A stretch of 32,322 nt of DNA, taken from contig DRGC01000007.1 of NCBI GenBank assembly GCA_011050235.1, positions 1 through 32,322 on the forward strand, read 5' to 3'. The DNA comes from Phycisphaerae bacterium. Its GTDB lineage: Bacteria > Planctomycetota > Phycisphaerae > SM23-33. Positions 9,798 to 20,052 of the stretch are shown piece after piece (the stretch's first letter is position 1; each line of letters starts with the position of its first letter). The notes under the pieces are model-generated. The model searched no databases, was not told the DNA's origin, and saw only the letters and a program-made list of their open reading frames with translations. Made by a program: the position numbers and the translations under genes.

Positions 9798-11306
9798 ATG
9801 AAACATTTTCTGGCCATTGACCTTGGCACGTCGGCCGTCAAGGCTGCGATCTTCGACGAGCGCGGCAAGCGGGCGGCCCTGGACATCCAGGAATACGCGC
9901 TGCTGACCGAGGGCGAGGATCTGTGCGAACTGCCCGCCGAGACCTATTGGGACAAGTTCGTCGTCGCCTGCAAGAAAGTCCTGGCTGATAGCGCCGTCGA
10001 TCCCAAGGATATCGCCGCGGTGGGCTTCGCCAGCCAGGGCGAGTCGTTCGTCCCGGTCGATGCGTCCGGCAAGCCGCTGCGCAACACCATCGTCTGGCTC
10101 GACAACCGCGCCCACGACGAAGCTGCTGCGATTGAAGCCAAGTTCGGGCGCGATCTGGTCTACAAGACCACGGGCCAGCCCGATGTCGGGCCGATCTGGA
10201 CGGCCTGCAAGATCCTGTGGATCAAGACCCACGAGCCGGACGTCTTTGCGGCGACGGCGAAGTTCTGCCTGGTCGAGGATTTTCTGATCCACCGCCTCTC
10301 GGGCAAGTTTGTCTCGGAGTTCTCGGTGTATTCATCCTCGCTGGTCCTCGACATCAACACGCGGGCCCTGTGGCCCGAGATGCTCGAGTTCATCGGCGTC
10401 TCGGCCGACCATTTCCCCGAGCTGACCGAGTCCGGCAGTGTGGTCGGCCCGATCACGGCCGAAGCGGCCGCGGCGACGGGCCTCTCGACCGAGACGCTGG
10501 TGGTCACCGGTGCGTACGATCACGCGGCCGGCAGCATCGGTGCGGGCGTCACGCACAGCGGTGTGATGAGCGAGACGACGGGCTCATCCATGGCCATCTG
10601 CGCCCCGGTCGATAGCATCGCCTTCGATCCCGAGTTCCGCGTGCCGGTGCACTGCCACGCCATCAGCGGCAAATACTTCTTCAGCCCCTACGGCGAGACG
10701 GCCGGCATGGTGCTCAAGTGGTTCCGCGACAATCTCGGCCAATCGGAGATCGCCCAGGCCGAAGCGACCGGCGGCGATGCGTTCGAAATTCTCAGCGAGA
10801 TGGCTGCAGCCGTCCCGGCCGGTAGCGAAGGGCTTGTGATGCTGCCGTTTCTTTCCGGGACAGGGGCCCCGGAGTTCGACCCCAACGCCAAGGGCGTGTT
10901 CTTCGGCTTGGCGCTGAAGCACACCAAGGGCCATTTCGTTCGGGCCATCATGGAATCGGTCGCCTACATGATCGCCAAGAACGTGGATGTGATGGCCGAC
11001 CTGGGCGTCAAGGTCGACGAGATCCGCTCCCTCGGCGGCGGGGCCAAGAGCGATCTGTGGTGTCAGATCAAAGCCGACGCCATGGGCACGCGGGTGGCGA
11101 TCGTCGAAGAATCCGAACAGGCCCTCAAGGGGGCCGCCATCCTCGCCGGTGTGGGGGCGGGCGTCTTCGGCGACCTGGAAGCGGCCAGCAACGATATGGT
11201 CGCCATCAAGAAACGCTACGAGCCCAACGCCGACAACGCCCAAATCTACGCCGCCGGCCTGGCCACCTACGAGGCGCTCTACGAGAACCTCAAGGGGTTG
11301 TTCTGA
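9798..11306 (+). CDS. FGGY-family carbohydrate kinase (xylulokinase-like)
   Basis: The 502-residue protein is a full-length FGGY kinase. The N-terminal phosphate loop is IDLGTSAVKAAIFD (7-20). GFASQGESFVPVD (76-88) and IVWLDNRA (98-105) are the substrate-side blocks. Asp241 in GAYDHAAGSIGAG is the expected catalytic base, followed by TTGSSMAI. The C-terminal ATP-binding block is SLGGGAKSDLWCQI. It should phosphorylate a ketose, the step after the isomerase encoded upstream. The ATG at 9798 follows GAGGGC by about eight bases. The gap to the isomerase is filled by the nested palindromic repeat, so transcript continuity is uncertain but likely. Conserved xylulokinase-like spacing is visible, but the sugar is not assigned. 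Confidence 0.9.
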   Translation: MKHFLAIDLGTSAVKAAIFDERGKRAALDIQEYALLTEGEDLCELPAETYWDKFVVACKKVLADSAVDPKDIAAVGFASQGESFVPVDASGKPLRNTIVWLDNRAHDEAAAIEAKFGRDLVYKTTGQPDVGPIWTACKILWIKTHEPDVFAATAKFCLVEDFLIHRLSGKFVSEFSVYSSSLVLDINTRALWPEMLEFIGVSADHFPELTESGSVVGPITAEAAAATGLSTETLVVTGAYDHAAGSIGAGVTHSGVMSETTGSSMAICAPVDSIAFDPEFRVPVHCHAISGKYFFSPYGETAGMVLKWFRDNLGQSEIAQAEATGGDAFEILSEMAAAVPAGSEGLVMLPFLSGTGAPEFDPNAKGVFFGLALKHTKGHFVRAIMESVAYMIAKNVDVMADLGVKVDEIRSLGGGAKSDLWCQIKADAMGTRVAIVEESEQALKGAAILAGVGAGVFGDLEAASNDMVAIKKRYEPNADNAQIYAAGLATYEALYENLKGLF

Positions 11307-11413: not shown

Positions 11414-12058
11414 CTATCGTCTTCGGCGTCGCAGACTCGCGATCGCACCGACGCCAAGCAAGGCCAGCGACGTCGGTTCGGGAACCGTGATCCAGCCGCT
11501 ATTGGCGTTGTCCTCGCCGATCCCCTGAACATGTGCGGCCGTTGGAAACGGACCATGTCCGCCGCCCGGCTTGCTGAGGAAATCGAAAGAGCCGGCCGTC
11601 AGCGAACCGATTCCCGTGATCGTGTAGGAGACATCCTCACCCGGACCGAAACGAGCGGCGTCCCCTCCGCCTGAGGCGAAGTCGAACTTGATATCAAACC
11701 ACCCGTCGCCGTCGGCCTTGAAGGCGTCCACAGACCGGCTGATCGTCGGACTGGTGAAGCTGCCGCTCTTGCTCGGCGCCGAGAACACCAACAGCGTCGG
11801 ATTCAGTGCGGGGTCGAGGTTGAACAGCCATAGGTTGACGAACTCCGAACCGACCAGGTTCGTCGCCGTCAACGTCAGGTCCACCGACCCCGGCGAGCCC
11901 CCATCGTCGAATATGGCAGTCAGCCACGGCGCCGCCCCGGCAGGGGGGGTGGCCCCGCTGAACTCGATACTTAAGGGGTATGACACCACGGACGCCTGCA
12001 GCCCGGCCGTCAAGGCCAAGACTATCACAAGCGCCAAAGCTCTATAGTTGTGCAACAT
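11414..12058 (-). CDS. Secreted PEP-CTERM protein (paralogue A)
   Basis: The 214-residue protein has a signal peptide (residues 1 to about 22, ending Gly-Leu-Gln-Ala), a beta-rich extracellular domain and a C-terminal PEP-CTERM signal (VPEPTSLALLGVGAIASL followed by five Arg). Such proteins are exported and processed by an exosortase at the cell surface. It is a paralogue of the next minus-strand protein (12333-13058). The two share the order SIEFSG, PAGA-PWL-A-FDD, PGSV-LTL, NLV--EFV and F-L along the chain. The ATG at 12058 has AGAGGAGGA five to seven bases upstream. The function of the domain is not recognised; structural or adhesive roles are typical for the class. The 274 bases upstream show no other gene, only an imperfect stem at about 12181-12205. 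Confidence 0.82.
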   Translation of the reverse strand: MLHNYRALALVIVLALTAGLQASVVSYPLSIEFSGATPPAGAAPWLTAIFDDGGSPGSVDLTLTATNLVGSEFVNLWLFNLDPALNPTLLVFSAPSKSGSFTSPTISRSVDAFKADGDGWFDIKFDFASGGGDAARFGPGEDVSYTITGIGSLTAGSFDFLSKPGGGHGPFPTAAHVQGIGEDNANSGWITVPEPTSLALLGVGAIASLRRRRR

Positions 12059-12332: not shown

Positions 12333-13058
12333 TTATGGCGCATCAAAAACGGGGGAATCTTGCAAATCGCCCGCTGAGTAGCTGGGTGGATTAGATCGGG
12401 CTCGCCTTCGCCGGAGCATGACCAGGCTGCCGATGGTCAGCAATCCGAGCGTGGCCGGTTCGGGTACGGCCGCGGGTGCGGACGTCCAGCCGCCATCGTC
12501 GCCATTGATAGCCTGCACGTGGGCGGCCACAGGATAGGCGCCATTGCCGCCGCCAGTGCTGGTAAGGTCGAAGGAACTGGCCGTCAGCGTGGCAATGCCG
12601 GTGATGGTAAAGGAGGCGGACTCCCCAACGCCAAAGCGTTCCGCACCGCTGCCCTGGTTGCTGGTGGCGAACGCCATCTCGATGTCATACCGGCCGCTGC
12701 CGGCGACGTTCCAACCGTCCGCATCGAGGTTGATCTTCGGGTCGTCAAACAGGCCGATCTTGAGCGGATCCGAGAAGGTCAGATCCTTCGGATCCAAAGA
12801 CGAATTGAGATTGAAGTACCACTTCGAGACGAACTCGTCGGCCACCAGGTTCAACACTTCGAGCGTCAACTCGACCGACCCGGGGGTGTCCTCGTCATCG
12901 AAAGTCGCCTTCAGCCATGGGCCCGCGCCGGCGGGCAACGATCCGCCGCTGAACTCGATGTCCAGGCCGTACGACACCACAAACGCATGCGACAGGGGGG
13001 CAGTGAGCAACACAACTGCCGCTACGGCGGCAGCGCACAACGGGGCTGTCTTCAACAT
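12333..13058 (-). CDS. Secreted PEP-CTERM protein (paralogue B) with a C-terminal extension
   Basis: The 241-residue protein starts MLKTAPLCAAAVAAVVLL, a signal peptide cleaved after Ser-His-Ala. It contains the same beta-rich domain as the neighbour at 11414-12058, in which most of the conserved blocks can be matched. It has a PEP-CTERM signal (VPEPATLGLLTIGSLVML, then Arg-rich). Unlike the neighbour, about 20 residues follow the Arg cluster, ending in an acidic, Pro-containing tail. This is unusual, because the signal normally ends the protein; a frameshift near the end is one explanation. ATG at 13058 was chosen because GGAG precedes it by nine bases and the signal peptide begins there; frame further upstream has no such support. 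The tandem arrangement suggests local duplication. Confidence 0.8.
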   Translation of the reverse strand: MLKTAPLCAAAVAAVVLLTAPLSHAFVVSYGLDIEFSGGSLPAGAGPWLKATFDDEDTPGSVELTLEVLNLVADEFVSKWYFNLNSSLDPKDLTFSDPLKIGLFDDPKINLDADGWNVAGSGRYDIEMAFATSNQGSGAERFGVGESASFTITGIATLTASSFDLTSTGGGNGAYPVAAHVQAINGDDGGWTSAPAAVPEPATLGLLTIGSLVMLRRRRARSNPPSYSAGDLQDSPVFDAP

Positions 13059-13541
13059 AGCTGCATTCTCCAAGTGCGCAGTTAGATCGGTCAGTGACCT
13101 GCGCTGCGCATTCAAGCACAGCCCGACGTATTCGCGGGGCAAGCGTCCATCAAAGCCCGAACCCGCGACGACCTCTCTCCTCCGCATGGAACGCATGCAA
13201 CGGTGTTGTCTGTTCCGTCAAAATCGTAGGCGCGGAAATTCCTCCAACGCGGAATTCACCGAGAAAAACACGCCTGGTGGAGGCCGGCAATCTGCCCGGC
13301 GGGCCCTTGGTATATCGGCGAGCAAGGCGACATGCCTGAGAGCTTTCGGTCCTGGCGGGGGCAAAAGGATTGCCCGTTCGCACCAGTTGGCTTATAACGG
13401 GCCTGCGGTGTCCGCCACCATCTTGCCAACTACGGCCTCGCCCTGCCGGGGGCGGTTTTCGGGAACTTGTGCTTACCGGGGGCGTCCAACCGTGGTAAGA
13501 ACATCCAGAGCGCGGGCGCGCAGCGACAGAAAGGGAATGCC
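13059..13541. other. Divergent intergenic region carrying a promoter module
   Basis: The region separates PEP-CTERM paralogue B (minus) from the DUF4139-like gene (plus). I see no gene in it. The plus-strand promoter module at 13354-13403 is described separately; it leaves a leader of about 135 bases before the ATG at 13542. I found no clear promoter for the minus-strand gene. Confidence 0.5.
13354..13403 (+). promoter_or_regulatory. Promoter module, copy 1 (before the DUF4139-like gene)
   Basis: TTGCCC (13370-13375) and TATAAC (13393-13398) are separated by exactly 17 bases. The block GGGGGCAAAAGGA lies just upstream and CGGG just downstream. A second copy at 15288-15337 has the same two conserved blocks and the same spacing, while the 10 bases in the middle of the spacer differ. 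Conserved boxes with a variable spacer of fixed length are what a promoter should look like. GGGCAA and TTGCCC also form a small 6-bp stem, which could be an operator. Confidence 0.65.
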
Positions 13542-15337: not shown

Positions 15338-15365
15338 TGCGCCGGTTGCCTGGCGACGACCTGCT

Positions 15366-16589
15366 ATGGACAAGACACTGGACAAGAGGCTCGCGGCTAT
15401 TCACGCCGACCCCAACGCCAATGACTTCATCCTGGCCGACGCCAAGGATGCGGACATGGCCTTCGGGATGGCGGCCCCCGGCAAGAGCCCCGAGCACGTC
15501 GACGGCGGATTCCGTTCGCTCGATGAGTACCGCGACCACATTCGCGAGAACATTCGCCAGGGCCTCGTGGACATCATGCTGATGAGTGTCTCGACGGCCG
15601 AATTCATCGCGCTGAACGAGCGGATGTTCGACCGCTCGACCGTGACGCCCGCCATCCGCGCCAACGATACGTCCGATATCTGGGTCGCTCGCGGAGCGGC
15701 CTATCCGAAGGAGGCGTCGCGCCCGTTTCGCACCGCGCTGATCGACCACGCCCAGTGCGGGCAGATCGCCGACGAGTCGTGCGACCGCACGCGCGGCGTG
15801 AACCTGGGCCTGTACAGTGTGACATTCAGCAACGACGTGGACACCGACCACCAGGTCCTCGAGACCTACAAGGAATTTCGCGTCGAGGCCGAGGCGAAGG
15901 GGTTCCGCCACTTCCTGGAGATCTTCGACCCCAACGCGCCGGTGAATCCGATCCCGCCGCACAAGATCGGGCCGTTCATCAACGATCTGATCGCCCGCAC
16001 GCTGGCCGGCGTCGCCTCGCCGGGCAGGCCGATCTTCCTGAAGATGGTCTACCACGGGCCCAAGTGGATGGAGGAGTTGGCCGGCTACGACCGCCATCTC
16101 GTGCCCGGCATCCTGGGCGGGTCGTCGGGGACGACCTACGACGCGTTCAAGCTGCTGGCCGAGGCGAAGAAGTACGGCGCGAGGGCGGCCCTTTTCGGCC
16201 GCAGGATCAACAACTCCGAGCACCAGCCGAGCTTCATCCAGTTCCTTCGCTGGCTGGCCGACGGCGAGGTCGAGCCGGAAGAGGCCGTCAAGGCCTACCA
16301 CGGCGTCCTGCAGGGCCTCGGTATCAAACCCCACCGGCCGCTGCAGCAGGACATGATGCTGACCACCAGCGTCACCAGCTACGGCGGCTCGGGCGTGACG
16401 ACGTCCCTGCCCTCAGCATCGCCGGGCGCCCGCTCGACAACCGGCAAGCCCAAGAAGACCGAAACGCCAGCATCCCCGGCCCAATCCACCGCCACCAAAC
16501 CCGACGGCCAACCGGACTTCGCCAAAATGACCCCAGCCGAACGCCTCGCCTACCACCAGCAACGTCTTGATAAGATGTTTGGGGATTGA
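15366..16589 (+). CDS. Aldolase-like TIM-barrel protein with a low-complexity linker and helical tail
   Basis: The 407-residue protein is probably an aldolase-superfamily TIM barrel. Lys226 in PIFLKMVYHG sits where class I aldolases place the Schiff-base lysine. GARAALFGRRIN (271-282) resembles the phosphate-binding GARGVVFGRN block of the aldolase encoded at 5891-6685. VPGILGGSSGTTYDAF lies between them. After about residue 335 comes a Ser/Thr/Pro/Lys-rich linker, then a short helix (residues 387-407, KMTPAERLAYHQQRLDKMFGD). That tail is unusual for the family and may be a docking or oligomerisation segment. ATG at 15366 fits the promoter module about 30 bases upstream, although its ribosome site is weak. 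The tail-coding end is found again at 18646-18711 beyond the three-gene islet. The reaction is unassigned. Confidence 0.65.
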   Translation: MDKTLDKRLAAIHADPNANDFILADAKDADMAFGMAAPGKSPEHVDGGFRSLDEYRDHIRENIRQGLVDIMLMSVSTAEFIALNERMFDRSTVTPAIRANDTSDIWVARGAAYPKEASRPFRTALIDHAQCGQIADESCDRTRGVNLGLYSVTFSNDVDTDHQVLETYKEFRVEAEAKGFRHFLEIFDPNAPVNPIPPHKIGPFINDLIARTLAGVASPGRPIFLKMVYHGPKWMEELAGYDRHLVPGILGGSSGTTYDAFKLLAEAKKYGARAALFGRRINNSEHQPSFIQFLRWLADGEVEPEEAVKAYHGVLQGLGIKPHRPLQQDMMLTTSVTSYGGSGVTTSLPSASPGARSTTGKPKKTETPASPAQSTATKPDGQPDFAKMTPAERLAYHQQRLDKMFGD

Positions 16590-16593
16590 AGCA

Positions 16594-16621
16594 GGCTTGG
16601 GGCTTGGGGCCTGAGGCTTGA
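16594..16621 (+). repeat. Four 7-bp tandem repeats (copy 1)
   Basis: The units are GGCTTGG, GGCTTGG, GGCCTGA and GGCTTGA, beginning five bases after the stop codon of the aldolase-like gene. The same four-unit block, 25 of 28 bases identical, follows the tail remnant at 18716-18743. It marks the left edge of the islet. Confidence 0.75.
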
Positions 16622-16778
16622 GCGTAAGAAGAAGCAACAGCCTGGGTGCGATCCGTCACCGGCGGGCACAGCAACCGTGCCGCGACGGCGGACCCAACGG
16701 CCTCCGAGAGCCCCGAAGCCAATCCTCTGGTACGTAGAAGACTTGGCCCCTCCTAACAGGGCGAGGGCCTCTGTCTGC

Positions 16779-17678
16779 TCACGCACCTGGCGGCGGCTTG
16801 CATGACGCAGAGAACTCAGCATCGCTCAGTAATCGTGATCTGATCCGCCTGATATCTGGGTCCGAGATTCGGGGGATTACGTCCTTTACCACCACTCCAA
16901 CTCGCGCAGCGGCCCTTTCTTTCGGCAAAGGCAGCCTGCTTCCCTTGATCGCCTTGTAAACATCTTCTGCCGCCAAGCCTGCCGACACAATTCCTGTCTC
17001 CTCCGCCAGAGTCGCCTCCTTCTGCGACACCCACAAGATATCCCCTAGCACCTGCTTGATGTGTTGCCTCATTTCGCGGCGGTTCCAGTCTTCGGTGGCA
17101 ACACGGGAAAACAGATGCCCCACAAGCCACCCGAGTTTGTTCTGAAACTGTCGCTTGATGCGCCCAGACCGAGCTTGGACCAGCGCCTCATAATGCTCTT
17201 TGGCATGCACCGCAATGCTCACTTGAAGCAACGCGACCGAGGAAACGGCGATCCCAACGCCCGCGTCCGCGTGAAGATAGAAGACTCCTTCGGTCTGTGC
17301 GTTCTGGTTGCATATCCTCTCAAGGAGCAATTGGGCCTTGTCACGTGTTTCCAAGCTGTACAGGCCGGGCACTCGCCCATCGGCGAGCTGAATAGTCTGG
17401 CACGTTGTCTGCAGCAGATCGTGCAGTACATCGCCCAAAGGGCGTATCACCGCGAGGTTGATGTATCTTGCTTTGCAGGGGTCCCCTCGCCCTCGCACCA
17501 GATCACAAGTCTGCGTGAGAACGAGGAATCCACTATACTTCTCGTTGATGAAGTGGTGATGAAAACGTCCAAGGATGTCCTGCAGTCCGGCAGTTGGCTG
17601 AAGAATGTCCCCCTGCTCCAAATCACATTCGCGATCCTCGATGCTTGCGTAAACAGGATGGACGGGGCGACTGGCCAT
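16779..17678 (-). CDS. Unknown protein, third gene of the islet operon (Gln-Thr-Cys-Asp-Leu motif)
   Basis: I do not recognise this 299-residue protein. It has no signal peptide or membrane segment. The N-terminal third contains LEQGDILQP (20-28) and GFLVLTQTCDLVRG (50-63). The second is a striking beta strand ending in QTCDL, which looks like an active-site or metal/ligand motif. Next come KARYINLAVIRPL and a helical C-terminal half rich in Arg, Lys and Glu. ATG at 17678 immediately follows the TAG of the upstream 77-residue gene, and AGAAGG lies four bases before it, so the two are translationally coupled. Base composition across this and the two upstream genes is visibly lower in GC than the flanking metabolic genes, which suggests horizontal acquisition. 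The compact operon with no metabolic neighbours fits an accessory or defence cassette, but that is inference. Confidence 0.75.
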   Translation of the reverse strand: MASRPVHPVYASIEDRECDLEQGDILQPTAGLQDILGRFHHHFINEKYSGFLVLTQTCDLVRGRGDPCKARYINLAVIRPLGDVLHDLLQTTCQTIQLADGRVPGLYSLETRDKAQLLLERICNQNAQTEGVFYLHADAGVGIAVSSVALLQVSIAVHAKEHYEALVQARSGRIKRQFQNKLGWLVGHLFSRVATEDWNRREMRQHIKQVLGDILWVSQKEATLAEETGIVSAGLAAEDVYKAIKGSRLPLPKERAAARVGVVVKDVIPRISDPDIRRIRSRLLSDAEFSASCKPPPGA

Positions 17679-17912
17679 CTAACCTTCTGTTGAAGATTCC
17701 CGTCTCCCAGTCTTGCCATGCTTTGCGCCGTACCTCAGGGAGAGCGGCCCCTCAGAAACTGCCGAGGGGACCGTGTAGATCCTGGGCTTCGGCGGCGGTG
17801 CCGTCGTTGCCTCGCCTGCCATCTCCGCGACGATCTTGACCCTTTCGACTACTGCACCATCCCGTTTCTGATCAGTTGTGTCCACATCCAAGTCACGACC
17901 TTTCGTCGGCAT
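17679..17912 (-). CDS. Small unknown protein, second gene of the islet operon
   Basis: A 77-residue charged protein lies between the two larger islet genes. It begins MPTKGRDLDVDTTDQKRDGA, has a central segment with RVKIVAEMAG, a Pro-rich stretch (APPPKPRIY) and a basic C-terminus. No domain is recognised. The ATG at 17912 has a strong AGGAGG ribosome site six bases upstream and lies within the last 20 bases of the preceding gene; its TAG abuts the ATG of the following gene. This overlap and adjacency support a real gene in a three-gene operon. Its size suggests an adaptor, inhibitor or assembly partner for the neighbours, which is inference only. Confidence 0.7.
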   Translation of the reverse strand: MPTKGRDLDVDTTDQKRDGAVVERVKIVAEMAGEATTAPPPKPRIYTVPSAVSEGPLSLRYGAKHGKTGRRESSTEG

Positions 17913-18546
17913 GTTCTTCCTCCTCAGTAACTTCTACGCACAGTGCCTTCAGAATGTTCTCGGCAGTTTCTCTAACGCTCTTGATTGGGGTCTGCAGCCA
18001 GCCTATCAACTCTCCCACATCGTTACTTGCCCGGTGGAAGTTCAGGAGCAATCTTGATTTCTGATCATCTGCAGTCAAGACTATGTTCACTACTCCCTCG
18101 CCGAAGCGAGCCGCACGGCTGATCGTCCGAGCGGTGACCTGCAAGCCTTTGTCAGCGACCGCGGCATCAAGGTCGGACGTCACCAGCCGAAGAACTGGCT
18201 CAGGTACCTCGTCGGCTTCATAGCCAATGTTGAACCCAACGGCCTCCACAGGCGTCTTGGGTAGCCACTCCAGGGCTTTCACACCTGCCTGCATTCCATA
18301 CTGCAGCGACTCGTAGGTTGGCGCTAGAACGTCAATCCTTAGCTTTCCGGAAGCGCCGCTCACGGCTATCTGCTCGTTCGGATGTTTGACTGTGAAAGGG
18401 GAAACACCGTCCATCGGGACCTCAACCTGCAGATCCTTCTTGTCTTGCAGATCGAAGATGTTTTCGGCAATTTCGCCAGGGCTAAGAATCGCGCGGTTCC
18501 ATCTGCCAGGTATGATCACGTTCCAATCGCAAGGCCTGAAAGGCAT
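17893..18546 (-). CDS. Unknown protein, first gene of the islet operon
   Basis: The 217-residue protein is not recognised. It begins MPFRPCDWNVIIPGRWNRAI, a motif with conserved-looking Cys, Trp and Asn-Arg. The middle part is beta-rich with several Val-rich strands (VEVPMDG, LRLVTSDLD, VVNIVLTADD). It ends in a helix (SVRETAENILKAL) and an acidic tail. There is no signal peptide. ATG at 18546 has GGGAG eight bases upstream; a TTG two codons earlier would be too close to that site. The 3' end overlaps the next gene by 20 bases. The general layout (about 220 residues, beta core, paired with a small and a larger unknown protein) resembles sporadically distributed accessory modules, but I cannot name a family. 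Confidence 0.75.
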   Translation of the reverse strand: MPFRPCDWNVIIPGRWNRAILSPGEIAENIFDLQDKKDLQVEVPMDGVSPFTVKHPNEQIAVSGASGKLRIDVLAPTYESLQYGMQAGVKALEWLPKTPVEAVGFNIGYEADEVPEPVLRLVTSDLDAAVADKGLQVTARTISRAARFGEGVVNIVLTADDQKSRLLLNFHRASNDVGELIGWLQTPIKSVRETAENILKALCVEVTEEEEHADERS

Positions 18547-18645
18547 CGTCAAGTCTCCCTAGTCATATTCCCCTTAGAATAGTAGCTTCTGACAGCCTTT
18601 CTGAAAAGCACAATCTCAATATTGTCAGGGCCAGGGCCGGCCGTC

Positions 18646-18711
18646 AAGATGTCTACTCCTGAACGCCTCGCCTACCACCAGAAACGCCTCGACCAGATGT
18701 TTGGGGATTGA
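18646..18711 (+). pseudogene. Remnant of the 3' end of an aldolase-like gene
   Basis: Twenty-one codons plus TGA encode KMSTPERLAYHQKRLDQMFGD, matching the last 21 codons of the gene at 15366-16589. The match is 54 of 66 bases with no gaps. From the GAA codon onward the differences include three synonymous third-position changes (CGT/CGC, CTT/CTC, GAT/GAC). The rest of the gene is absent; the frame upstream runs into islet sequence. The synonymous pattern suggests a remnant of a diverged paralogue or allele, not a fresh target-site duplication. A 20-codon standalone reading from ATG 18649 is possible but has no ribosome site. Confidence 0.7.
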
Positions 18712-18715
18712 CGTG

Positions 18716-18743
18716 GGCTTGGGGTTTGGGGGCTGAGGCTTGC
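18716..18743 (+). repeat. Four 7-bp tandem repeats (copy 2)
   Basis: The units are GGCTTGG, GGTTTGG, GGGCTGA and GGCTTGC, which align one to one with the block at 16594-16621 (25 of 28 bases). Together with the tail remnant just before it, this forms an imperfect direct repeat of about 98 bases flanking the three-gene islet. Confidence 0.75.
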
Positions 18744-18809: not shown

Positions 18810-19958
18810 CTACGTCAGCTCGAGTTCCACGACGGTCTGGTTGGCCTGGGATTCGAGGGCGGCGGTGAAGAGGGTGTGGCTCCAGGCGGTCTCTTGGGGG
18901 GTGGCGCAGGCGGCGAAGGTGCTGGGGGCTGAGCCGGTCGATAGCTCGTGGATGAAGGCGGCCCACATCTGCAGGATGCTGTCGGAGAAGCCGAACTCGA
19001 AGATCCCGCCCGTGATGGATTTGAAGGCGGTCTCGTGGCCGGTGTCGATCTGCCCCCAGACCTGCTCGCCGCCGTCGTATTCGAGGATTTCCAGCCGGCG
19101 GGGGTTCTTGGTCGAGAACCGTGCGCAGGCGGTCGTGCCTTTGATCTCGAGCGACCAGCTGTTGGTCTCGCCCGGTGCGATCCGCTGGGTCTTGAGCGTC
19201 ATCGGGAACAGGTTGCCGTCGCCGTCGGCCGCTTCGCACAGCAGCGTGGCGTTGTCCCACGTCTCGCACGGCACGCGCTTGCCGGACTTATCCGGCCGGG
19301 TCGTCATGATATTGCTCAGCACCGCCCGAACGTTCCGCGGCAGCCAGCCCGCGCGGAAGGGGATGTGGCAGACGTGCATGCCCAGGTCGCCCATGCAGCC
19401 GTACTCGCCGTTCTTGTCGATCATCCGCTTCCAGTTGATGGCCTTGTCCGGGTCCAGGTCGCTGGAGTGCCGGAAGAAGCCGTTAAACTCGATCACCCGC
19501 CCGAACGCGCCGGCGTCGATCATCCGCCCGATCCGCTGAACGCCCGGGCAGAACGGGAACTCGCTGCTGCAGCGAACGAAGACATCCGGATGCTGAGCGA
19601 TGGCGGCCAGGATCGCATCGTTGGCGGGCTTGTCGATGCCGAAGGGCTTCTCGCCCATCAGGTGCTTGCCGGCGGCGATCGTGTCGCAGTAGACCTGCTG
19701 GTGCAGGTTGTGGGGCACAGCGACGTAGACGGCGTCGATGTTGTCGCTGGCCAGCAGCTGCTTGTAGTCGCCGGTAGCCAATGAGATGGTCTGGAAGTTG
19801 TCGGTGTACCAATCGAGAACGCTCTCGTTGGCGTCGCAGACAGCCACGATCTCCGGCCGAGCGTCCATCTCCGGCAAGTGACACCACCGAGCAGCCGCAC
19901 TGGCGAACTCGCGCCCCATCAGGCCGCAACCGATAATGCCGAAGCGAATCGTTTTCAT
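18810..19958 (-). CDS. Gfo/Idh/MocA-family oxidoreductase
   Basis: The 382-residue protein has the N-terminal NAD(P)-binding Rossmann motif GIIGCGLMG (7-15), followed by VAVCD at the end of beta-2. The family Glu-Lys-Pro block is GEKPF (102-106). GCMGDLGMHVCHI (188-199) supplies the catalytic Asp191 and His195 pair. The family oxidises or reduces hydroxyl groups of sugars, cyclitols and their derivatives; the substrate is not evident. ATG at 19958 has AGAGG eight bases upstream and starts right at the Rossmann fold, so an earlier in-frame start is unlikely. It is the last of four collinear minus-strand genes, after an aminotransferase from which it is separated by a palindromic repeat. An oxidoreductase plus a class III aminotransferase would fit conversion of a keto sugar or cyclitol to an amine. 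Confidence 0.88.
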   Translation of the reverse strand: MKTIRFGIIGCGLMGREFASAAARWCHLPEMDARPEIVAVCDANESVLDWYTDNFQTISLATGDYKQLLASDNIDAVYVAVPHNLHQQVYCDTIAAGKHLMGEKPFGIDKPANDAILAAIAQHPDVFVRCSSEFPFCPGVQRIGRMIDAGAFGRVIEFNGFFRHSSDLDPDKAINWKRMIDKNGEYGCMGDLGMHVCHIPFRAGWLPRNVRAVLSNIMTTRPDKSGKRVPCETWDNATLLCEAADGDGNLFPMTLKTQRIAPGETNSWSLEIKGTTACARFSTKNPRRLEILEYDGGEQVWGQIDTGHETAFKSITGGIFEFGFSDSILQMWAAFIHELSTGSAPSTFAACATPQETAWSHTLFTAALESQANQTVVELELT

Positions 19959-19972
19959 TGATACATCCTCTG

Positions 19973-20052
19973 GGGTGGCACGGCTTGCTTGCAAGCCGTG
20001 TTCCTCAAGTCGCCATGGATGCTACACGGGTTGCGAGCAACCCGTGCCACCC
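19973..20052. repeat. Two-hairpin palindromic intergenic element
   Basis: An outer 11-bp inverted repeat, GGGTGGCACGG (19973-19983) and CCGTGCCACCC (20042-20052), encloses two hairpins with 10-bp perfect stems: 19979-20000 (CACGGCTTGC) and 20025-20046 (CACGGGTTGC). The stems differ at one position that is compensated on the other side. It lies between the aminotransferase stop and the oxidoreductase start. Confidence 0.8.

Follow-up and report, generated by a model that had tools for sequence, protein, structure and literature searches.

The window, by which we mean the whole stretch of DNA analysed here, is an entire 32-kb contig (32,322 nucleotides) from a Phycisphaerae genome of 4.0 Mb in 98 contigs. 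Within it, a 2-kb islet lies between an aldolase-like gene (15351-16589, plus strand) and a Gfo/Idh-like gene (18810-19958, minus strand). The islet holds three minus-strand genes, referred to here as A, B and C. Gene A (17893-18552) is an open frame encoding 219 aa from its first start or 217 aa from its second, the latter being the start chosen in an earlier note on this DNA. Gene B (17679-17912) encodes 77 aa and overlaps A by 20 bp, and its TAG abuts the ATG of gene C (16779-17678), an open frame of 299 aa. The earlier note had described three packed genes with this overlap and this junction, and we recovered the same overlap and junction.

The GC content is 0.637 over the whole window but 0.565 at 16621-18641, and the GC3 of A, B and C is 0.62-0.63, compared with 0.81-0.92 in 14 other window genes. 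Given this GC3 gap, the islet is compositionally foreign, and the lower GC seen previously is borne out. As had also been reported, the islet contains no recognisable integrase or transposase. A, B and C are without a match in Pfam, NCBIfam, PHROGs and PADLOC. Scans of the islet for promoters, terminators and Rfam families were at chance level or empty.

Elsewhere in the window, a 29-bp inverted repeat (GGGTGGCACGGCTTG...; 90% complementary, with a 22-nt loop) is present at 19973-20052, upstream of the Gfo/Idh-like gene, and is possibly a dispersed palindromic element. PEP-CTERM-like sorting tails end three window proteins (887-2338, 11414-12058 and 12333-13196), the latter two of which resemble each other and look like relatives.

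Flanking repeat and insertion site

The insertion site is the host aldolase-like gene, which lies outside the system and whose 3' end is duplicated. The left direct repeat (16520-16620, plus strand) comprises the last aldolase-like codons and a heptamer tail, and the right direct repeat (18642-18742, plus strand) comprises an orphan aldolase-like 3' end and a heptamer tail. The two copies are identical at 83 of 101 positions (BLAST E 2e-23 within the genome), and the C-terminal peptides that they encode read KMTPAERLAYHQQRLDKMFGD and KMSTPERLAYHQKRLDQMFGD, each ending at a stop codon. The aldolase tail KMTPxxRLAYHRxRL is conserved in most relatives of the aldolase-like gene; hence, the duplicated segment is a genuine gene 3' end, and the right repeat is an orphan gene end. 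An end of this kind is what either integration at the 3' end of a gene or recombination with the allele of a donor would leave behind.

The non-coding part of the repeat, at window positions 16590-16620 and 18712-18742, is the heptamer tail (GGCTTGGGG... and GGCTTGGGGCTTGGGGCCTGAGGCTTG...). This heptamer repeat is dispersed and intergenic, being found after genes in at least 6 other places in the genome (L003-L008), so that only the coding part of the flanking repeat is site specific. The earlier description of a flanking repeat derived from a host-gene 3' end is therefore upheld for the coding part but not for the heptamers as a site-specific feature.

Other members of the family and class carry relatives of the aldolase-like gene at 57-70% identity. 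The comparison with relatives lacking the islet, which the earlier note had suggested, could be made with these: in the other genomes carrying the gene, neither A nor C is found within 1.5 kb of it. None of these genomes offers a clean empty site, in that the Gfo/Idh-like gene was unseen within 1.5 kb of their aldolase gene.

Occurrence of the operon in other genomes

C is present in 3 of 100 relatives (the window's own genome included), and A is present in those three as well, at one place each. A wider profile search found the operon in 4 of 392 genomes of the window's phylum (its own genome among them), 4 of 297 genomes of the phylum of a Deltaproteobacteria record, 2 of 398 genomes of the phylum of a Rhodocyclaceae record (one copy being broken) and, in the order of the latter, 1 of 330 genomes, this being the seed itself; all four counts include the seed genomes. 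The operon is thus rare and sporadic, occurring in no more than ca. 1% of the genomes sampled. Its closest relative is in G060 (L017), a genome with the public title "Actinomycetes bacterium" that is placed in the class of the window's genome; the public title is probably wrong.

The gene order A-B-C recurs in other Planctomycetota, in the Deltaproteobacteria-type phylum, in a Rhodocyclaceae genome and in two phage contigs from IMG/VR, which answers affirmatively the question, raised in the earlier note, of whether the three genes co-occur elsewhere. Wherever the sequence suffices, A is followed by an ORF of 65-125 aa (B) and then by C, so that a small gene always precedes C; in G1008, the B region is broken by undetermined bases. 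A gene-sized ORF spans the gap from the end of A to the start of C in all 9 of the 9 loci tested, for which the combined probability by chance, as estimated from shuffled gaps, is ca. 1.5e-9. A and C have diverged together: over ten loci, their distances correlate tightly (Mantel r 0.88, p 5e-5). Between one Phycisphaerae genome and one genome of the Deltaproteobacteria-type phylum, the C proteins show 56% identity, which points to transfer between phyla.

In scans of viral sequences, a narrow profile found nothing, and broader profiles found the two IMG/VR contigs, L064 and L065. tblastn searches yielded no significant relative of C in reference phages and no copy of the operon (no significant relative of C or A) in 72,556 plasmid records.

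Genomic neighbourhoods

In the Rhodocyclaceae genome, A-B-C is directly preceded by a complete type I restriction system of HsdM, HsdS and HsdR (PADLOC E 4e-190, 7e-77 and 2e-175, respectively), on the far side of which a Tn7/Mu-type transposase, TniB and TniQ are encoded. From these, A-B-C appears to be cargo of a putative Tn7-like element. In G826, A is directly downstream of an MmeI-like type IIG enzyme (E 2e-278), and a serine recombinase lies ca. 1.8 kb beyond C; in G1008, A comes after the end of a different type IIG enzyme (PADLOC E 3e-31, with the BseCI methylase as its PDB match). On contig L064, the neighbour of A-B-C is a TOPRIM ATPase of the AAA/OLD-like kind (PADLOC Old E 6e-22), and beyond it come portal, terminase, scaffold and capsid genes of P2 type. 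L064 also encodes, in the defence hotspot, a 231-aa protein of no known family (10209-10901), whose gene separates that of the OLD-like ATPase from the portal gene and which could be a partner of the OLD-like protein. The other phage contig, L065, shows genes matching phage protein families, followed by A, B and the start of C.

The remaining loci are more varied. In G876, the operon is flanked by purL-like and purQ-like genes, and in G645, it is near an integrase-core-type transposase. The copy in G136 (L032:8452-10157), an 8-Mb genome, is a decayed islet, with a broken C that loses its frame after ca. 130 residues, near a Mutator-family transposase.

Altogether, 4 of the ca. 9 loci with readable neighbours adjoin recognised defence genes, and 2 are in phages. 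Judging from typical gene counts, a random gene would abut a restriction gene at a base rate of well under 1%. With so low a base rate, the adjacency to defence genes is unlikely to be due to chance, although the loci are few (ca. 9). Proximity to known defence genes, which the earlier note had proposed as a check, is thus seen for HsdMSR within the Tn7-like element, for the two type IIG enzymes and for an OLD-like ATPase beside a P2-like portal. The copy in the window is itself without a defence neighbour.

Predicted properties of the three proteins

An AlphaFold2 model of C, built from 8 natural sequences, had a pLDDT of 83. In VIA-align, all 50 rows listed for this model were MazF, CcdB or Kid structures, the best of them aligning 106 residues (model residues 18-187; rmsd 3.7) with a Z of 8.4, although a Z of about 8 is a level reachable without kinship and near background. 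In a Foldseek search of viral predictions (BFVD), endoribonuclease and PemK-like proteins came out on top, at weak E values of 0.02-0.1. We therefore consider that residues ca. 18-193 of C likely form a MazF/CcdB-fold domain; given the weak E values and the modest Z, this is held as a similarity of fold and not as proven homology. In the model, a helical C-terminal domain follows the MazF/CcdB-like domain.

Sequence comparisons did not place C in the PemK/MazF family. PF02452 gave no match up to an E of 10 with the window's C or with eight members of the C-family alignment, and hhalign of C with ten PemK proteins was not significant (P 0.03-0.05, with inconsistent registers), so that sequence profiles do not support membership. 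Searches of PDB sequences with C alone and with a C profile found nothing. PADLOC gave one weak single-member match (E 0.03) among ten C proteins and none for the C of L029 and L064. Weak matches to MazG, FlbT, Cas11 and the like in profile searches with A, B and C were single-member noise.

The invariant polar residues of C include H7, Q22, D24, Q56, C58, D59, Y72, R79, N124, N126, H162, K181 and R192, and its invariant motifs are Q22-G-D24 and Q56-x-C58-D59, the latter within an unusual Q-[S/T]-C-D loop. The QTCDL motif to which the earlier note had drawn attention is at the centre of this set. The invariant polar residues look like a catalytic site. MazF has an active site with an arginine and a threonine, from which the invariant residues of C presumably differ.

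For A, an AlphaFold2 model from 7 natural sequences reached a pLDDT of 88.5. Its best Foldseek matches were all TATA-binding proteins (E 6e-5, prob ~1.0), with an rmsd of ca. 10 and TM-scores of 0.27-0.40 as listed, and its predicted strand/helix order repeats twice, as in TBP. In VIA-align, a Z of 7.4 was tied with that of AdoMetDC and arginine kinases, and the A profile had no match among PDB sequences. The model of A thus resembles a saddle-shaped alpha/beta protein of TBP-like fold, a weaker fold match than that of C. Relatives of A from all complete loci share the invariant motifs GxWNxxIxxP, LPxTPxxAxGxN and NFH. We also considered whether A might be a SecB/TAC chaperone, an identity ruled out when hhalign was used to compare ten A proteins with 13 SecB proteins (probability 0.3%, 10 columns).

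B is poorly conserved in sequence across loci and is probably a small, disordered linker protein; searches of Pfam, NCBIfam, PHROGs and PADLOC revealed no known antitoxin domain or other domain in it. The B of G876 (L038:7601-7978) is longer, at 125 aa, with an apparent internal repeat (KDVFQFTYD/KDTFSFTYD), and an R-rich C-terminal end is common to the B proteins of G876 and G826. Based on the long, repeat-bearing B of G876 and this common end, B may occur in two subtypes.

Discussion

In the current study, we examined a three-gene islet in a planctomycete genome and found that the same three genes travel together, in the same order, through distant bacteria and their phages. The interpretation that we favour, and to which we would give about an even chance, is that the islet is a copy of an undescribed, horizontally moving conflict module, most likely an anti-phage system of the toxin-antitoxin type. 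We infer the following roles, trigger and outcome. C would be the effector, its MazF/CcdB-fold domain bearing a polar site unlike that of MazF (Q56, C58, D59, Y72, R79 and others) and being fused to a helical domain; it would probably act as a nuclease or, alternatively, poison some other core process. B, as a small linker protein, may be the antitoxin or adaptor that holds C inactive. A would serve as a sensor or regulator, controlling B and C through its contact with nucleic acid or with some phage product. The outcome would be phage defence by growth arrest.

The earlier note had taken the islet for a mobile accessory operon of an undescribed family, and this is strongly supported; its suggestion of a defence system is well supported by association. 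In P2-like phages, the stretch from gpA to gpQ, the portal gene, is known to house defence genes, as with old and tin in P2 (PMC9122126), and restriction systems and OLD-family nucleases are common cargo of Tn7-like elements (PMC8649781). A-B-C likewise lies beside OLD-like and portal genes in one case and beside HsdM-S-R in another, but unlike that known cargo, its proteins match no PADLOC-DB 2.0.0 model. The family is absent from Pfam, NCBIfam 2026, PHROGs and PADLOC 2023, although newer defence catalogues could list it under another name. In full-text searches of the literature, we found no description of the motif, of a TBP-like/MazF combination or of a tripartite MazF system.

Several observations count against the defence reading. 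One is the lack of a defence neighbour in the window itself. Sequence profiles do not support a kinship of C with PemK/MazF, the Z of 8.4 is modest, and loci with readable neighbours are few (ca. 9). A further observation concerns B: type II antitoxins usually bear a recognisable DNA-binding domain, and the lack of one in B counts against a reading of the toxin-antitoxin type.

Restriction enzymes are directly upstream of A in 3 of the ca. 9 readable loci, and these are of two enzyme types. This raises the alternative that A-B-C is an accessory of restriction-modification that modulates the neighbouring enzymes, such as a guard that brings about cell death once restriction has failed or been inhibited. 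However, none of the copies in the window, between purL and purQ, associated with IS elements or in the two phages has a restriction enzyme directly beside it, and we regard a restriction accessory as unlikely. A second alternative is that A-B-C is purely an addiction module, a cassette of the toxin-antitoxin type that stabilises mobile elements and plays no part in phage defence. Such a role would fit the predicted MazF/CcdB fold of C, the small size of B and the copies in a Tn7-like element and in phages, but it is hard to reconcile with the lack of any copy in 72,556 plasmid records, with the copy beside Old in the P2 defence hotspot and with the third conserved gene, A, which would be unusual in a simple addiction pair; we think it similarly improbable. 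It may also be that the operon has no role in conflict at all, being an accessory operon whose function (enzymatic, binding or regulatory) has nothing to do with phages and which mobile elements carry by chance. No domain is recognised by sequence, and the invariant polar residues of C would suit an enzyme of unknown substrate, but the operon's rarity, its sporadic spread across phyla and its repeated adjacency to defence genes make this quite improbable. Finally, carriage by two phage contigs and a Tn7-like element might suggest counter-defence, whereby the elements use A-B-C to weaken restriction or another form of immunity in the host, but this is very improbable, since the Tn7-like element has its own restriction system adjoining A-B-C, the islets in the window and in G876 are chromosomal and without phage genes, and the genes in the P2 hotspot are typically defence genes (PMC9122126).

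Returning to the toxin-antitoxin-type defence system, its nearest relations by likeness are the MazF/PemK/CcdB superfamily (PF02452) and the tripartite TAC systems. With the former, A-B-C shares the predicted fold of C, a QGD start, short strands in a similar order and a small partner gene ahead of the toxin-like gene. Unlike members of that superfamily, C is 299 aa long rather than ca. 110, has helical insertions and a C-terminal domain, lacks a PF02452 match and contains the conserved Q-[S/T]-C-D loop; moreover, there are three genes rather than two. CmdTAC is a tripartite system in which a phage component releases the toxin (PMC11618068), and A-B-C would operate along similar lines. As with CmdTAC and TAC (PMC11618068), we have three small genes, a proposed toxin and antitoxin plus a third protein, and a setting of phage defence. 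However, the gene order is different, A has no SecB signal and C matches no ADP-ribosyltransferase profile; by the latter two differences, A-B-C is not a member of the CmdTAC family. As for TBP, A is alike in its predicted, twice-repeated strand/helix order and its Foldseek E of 6e-5, but it differs in its low TM-scores, in a VIA Z of 7.4 that is shared with other folds and in having no sequence match.

One speculative extension, which we consider doubtful, is that a TBP-fold A is the sensor of foreign nucleic acid (or of a phage product), whereupon a disordered B releases a MazF-fold C with a new Gln-Cys-Asp active site, the whole constituting a new immune class.

If the favoured interpretation is true, an uncatalogued three-gene family would join the bacterial defence repertoire, hosted by poorly cultured Planctomycetota and the Deltaproteobacteria-type phylum, with phages and a Tn7-like element as its carriers. 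C would then be a MazF/CcdB-fold protein with new active-site residues, and A would provide an unusual example of a TBP-like fold within a bacterial conflict system. At ca. 2 kb, A-B-C is small enough for direct testing.
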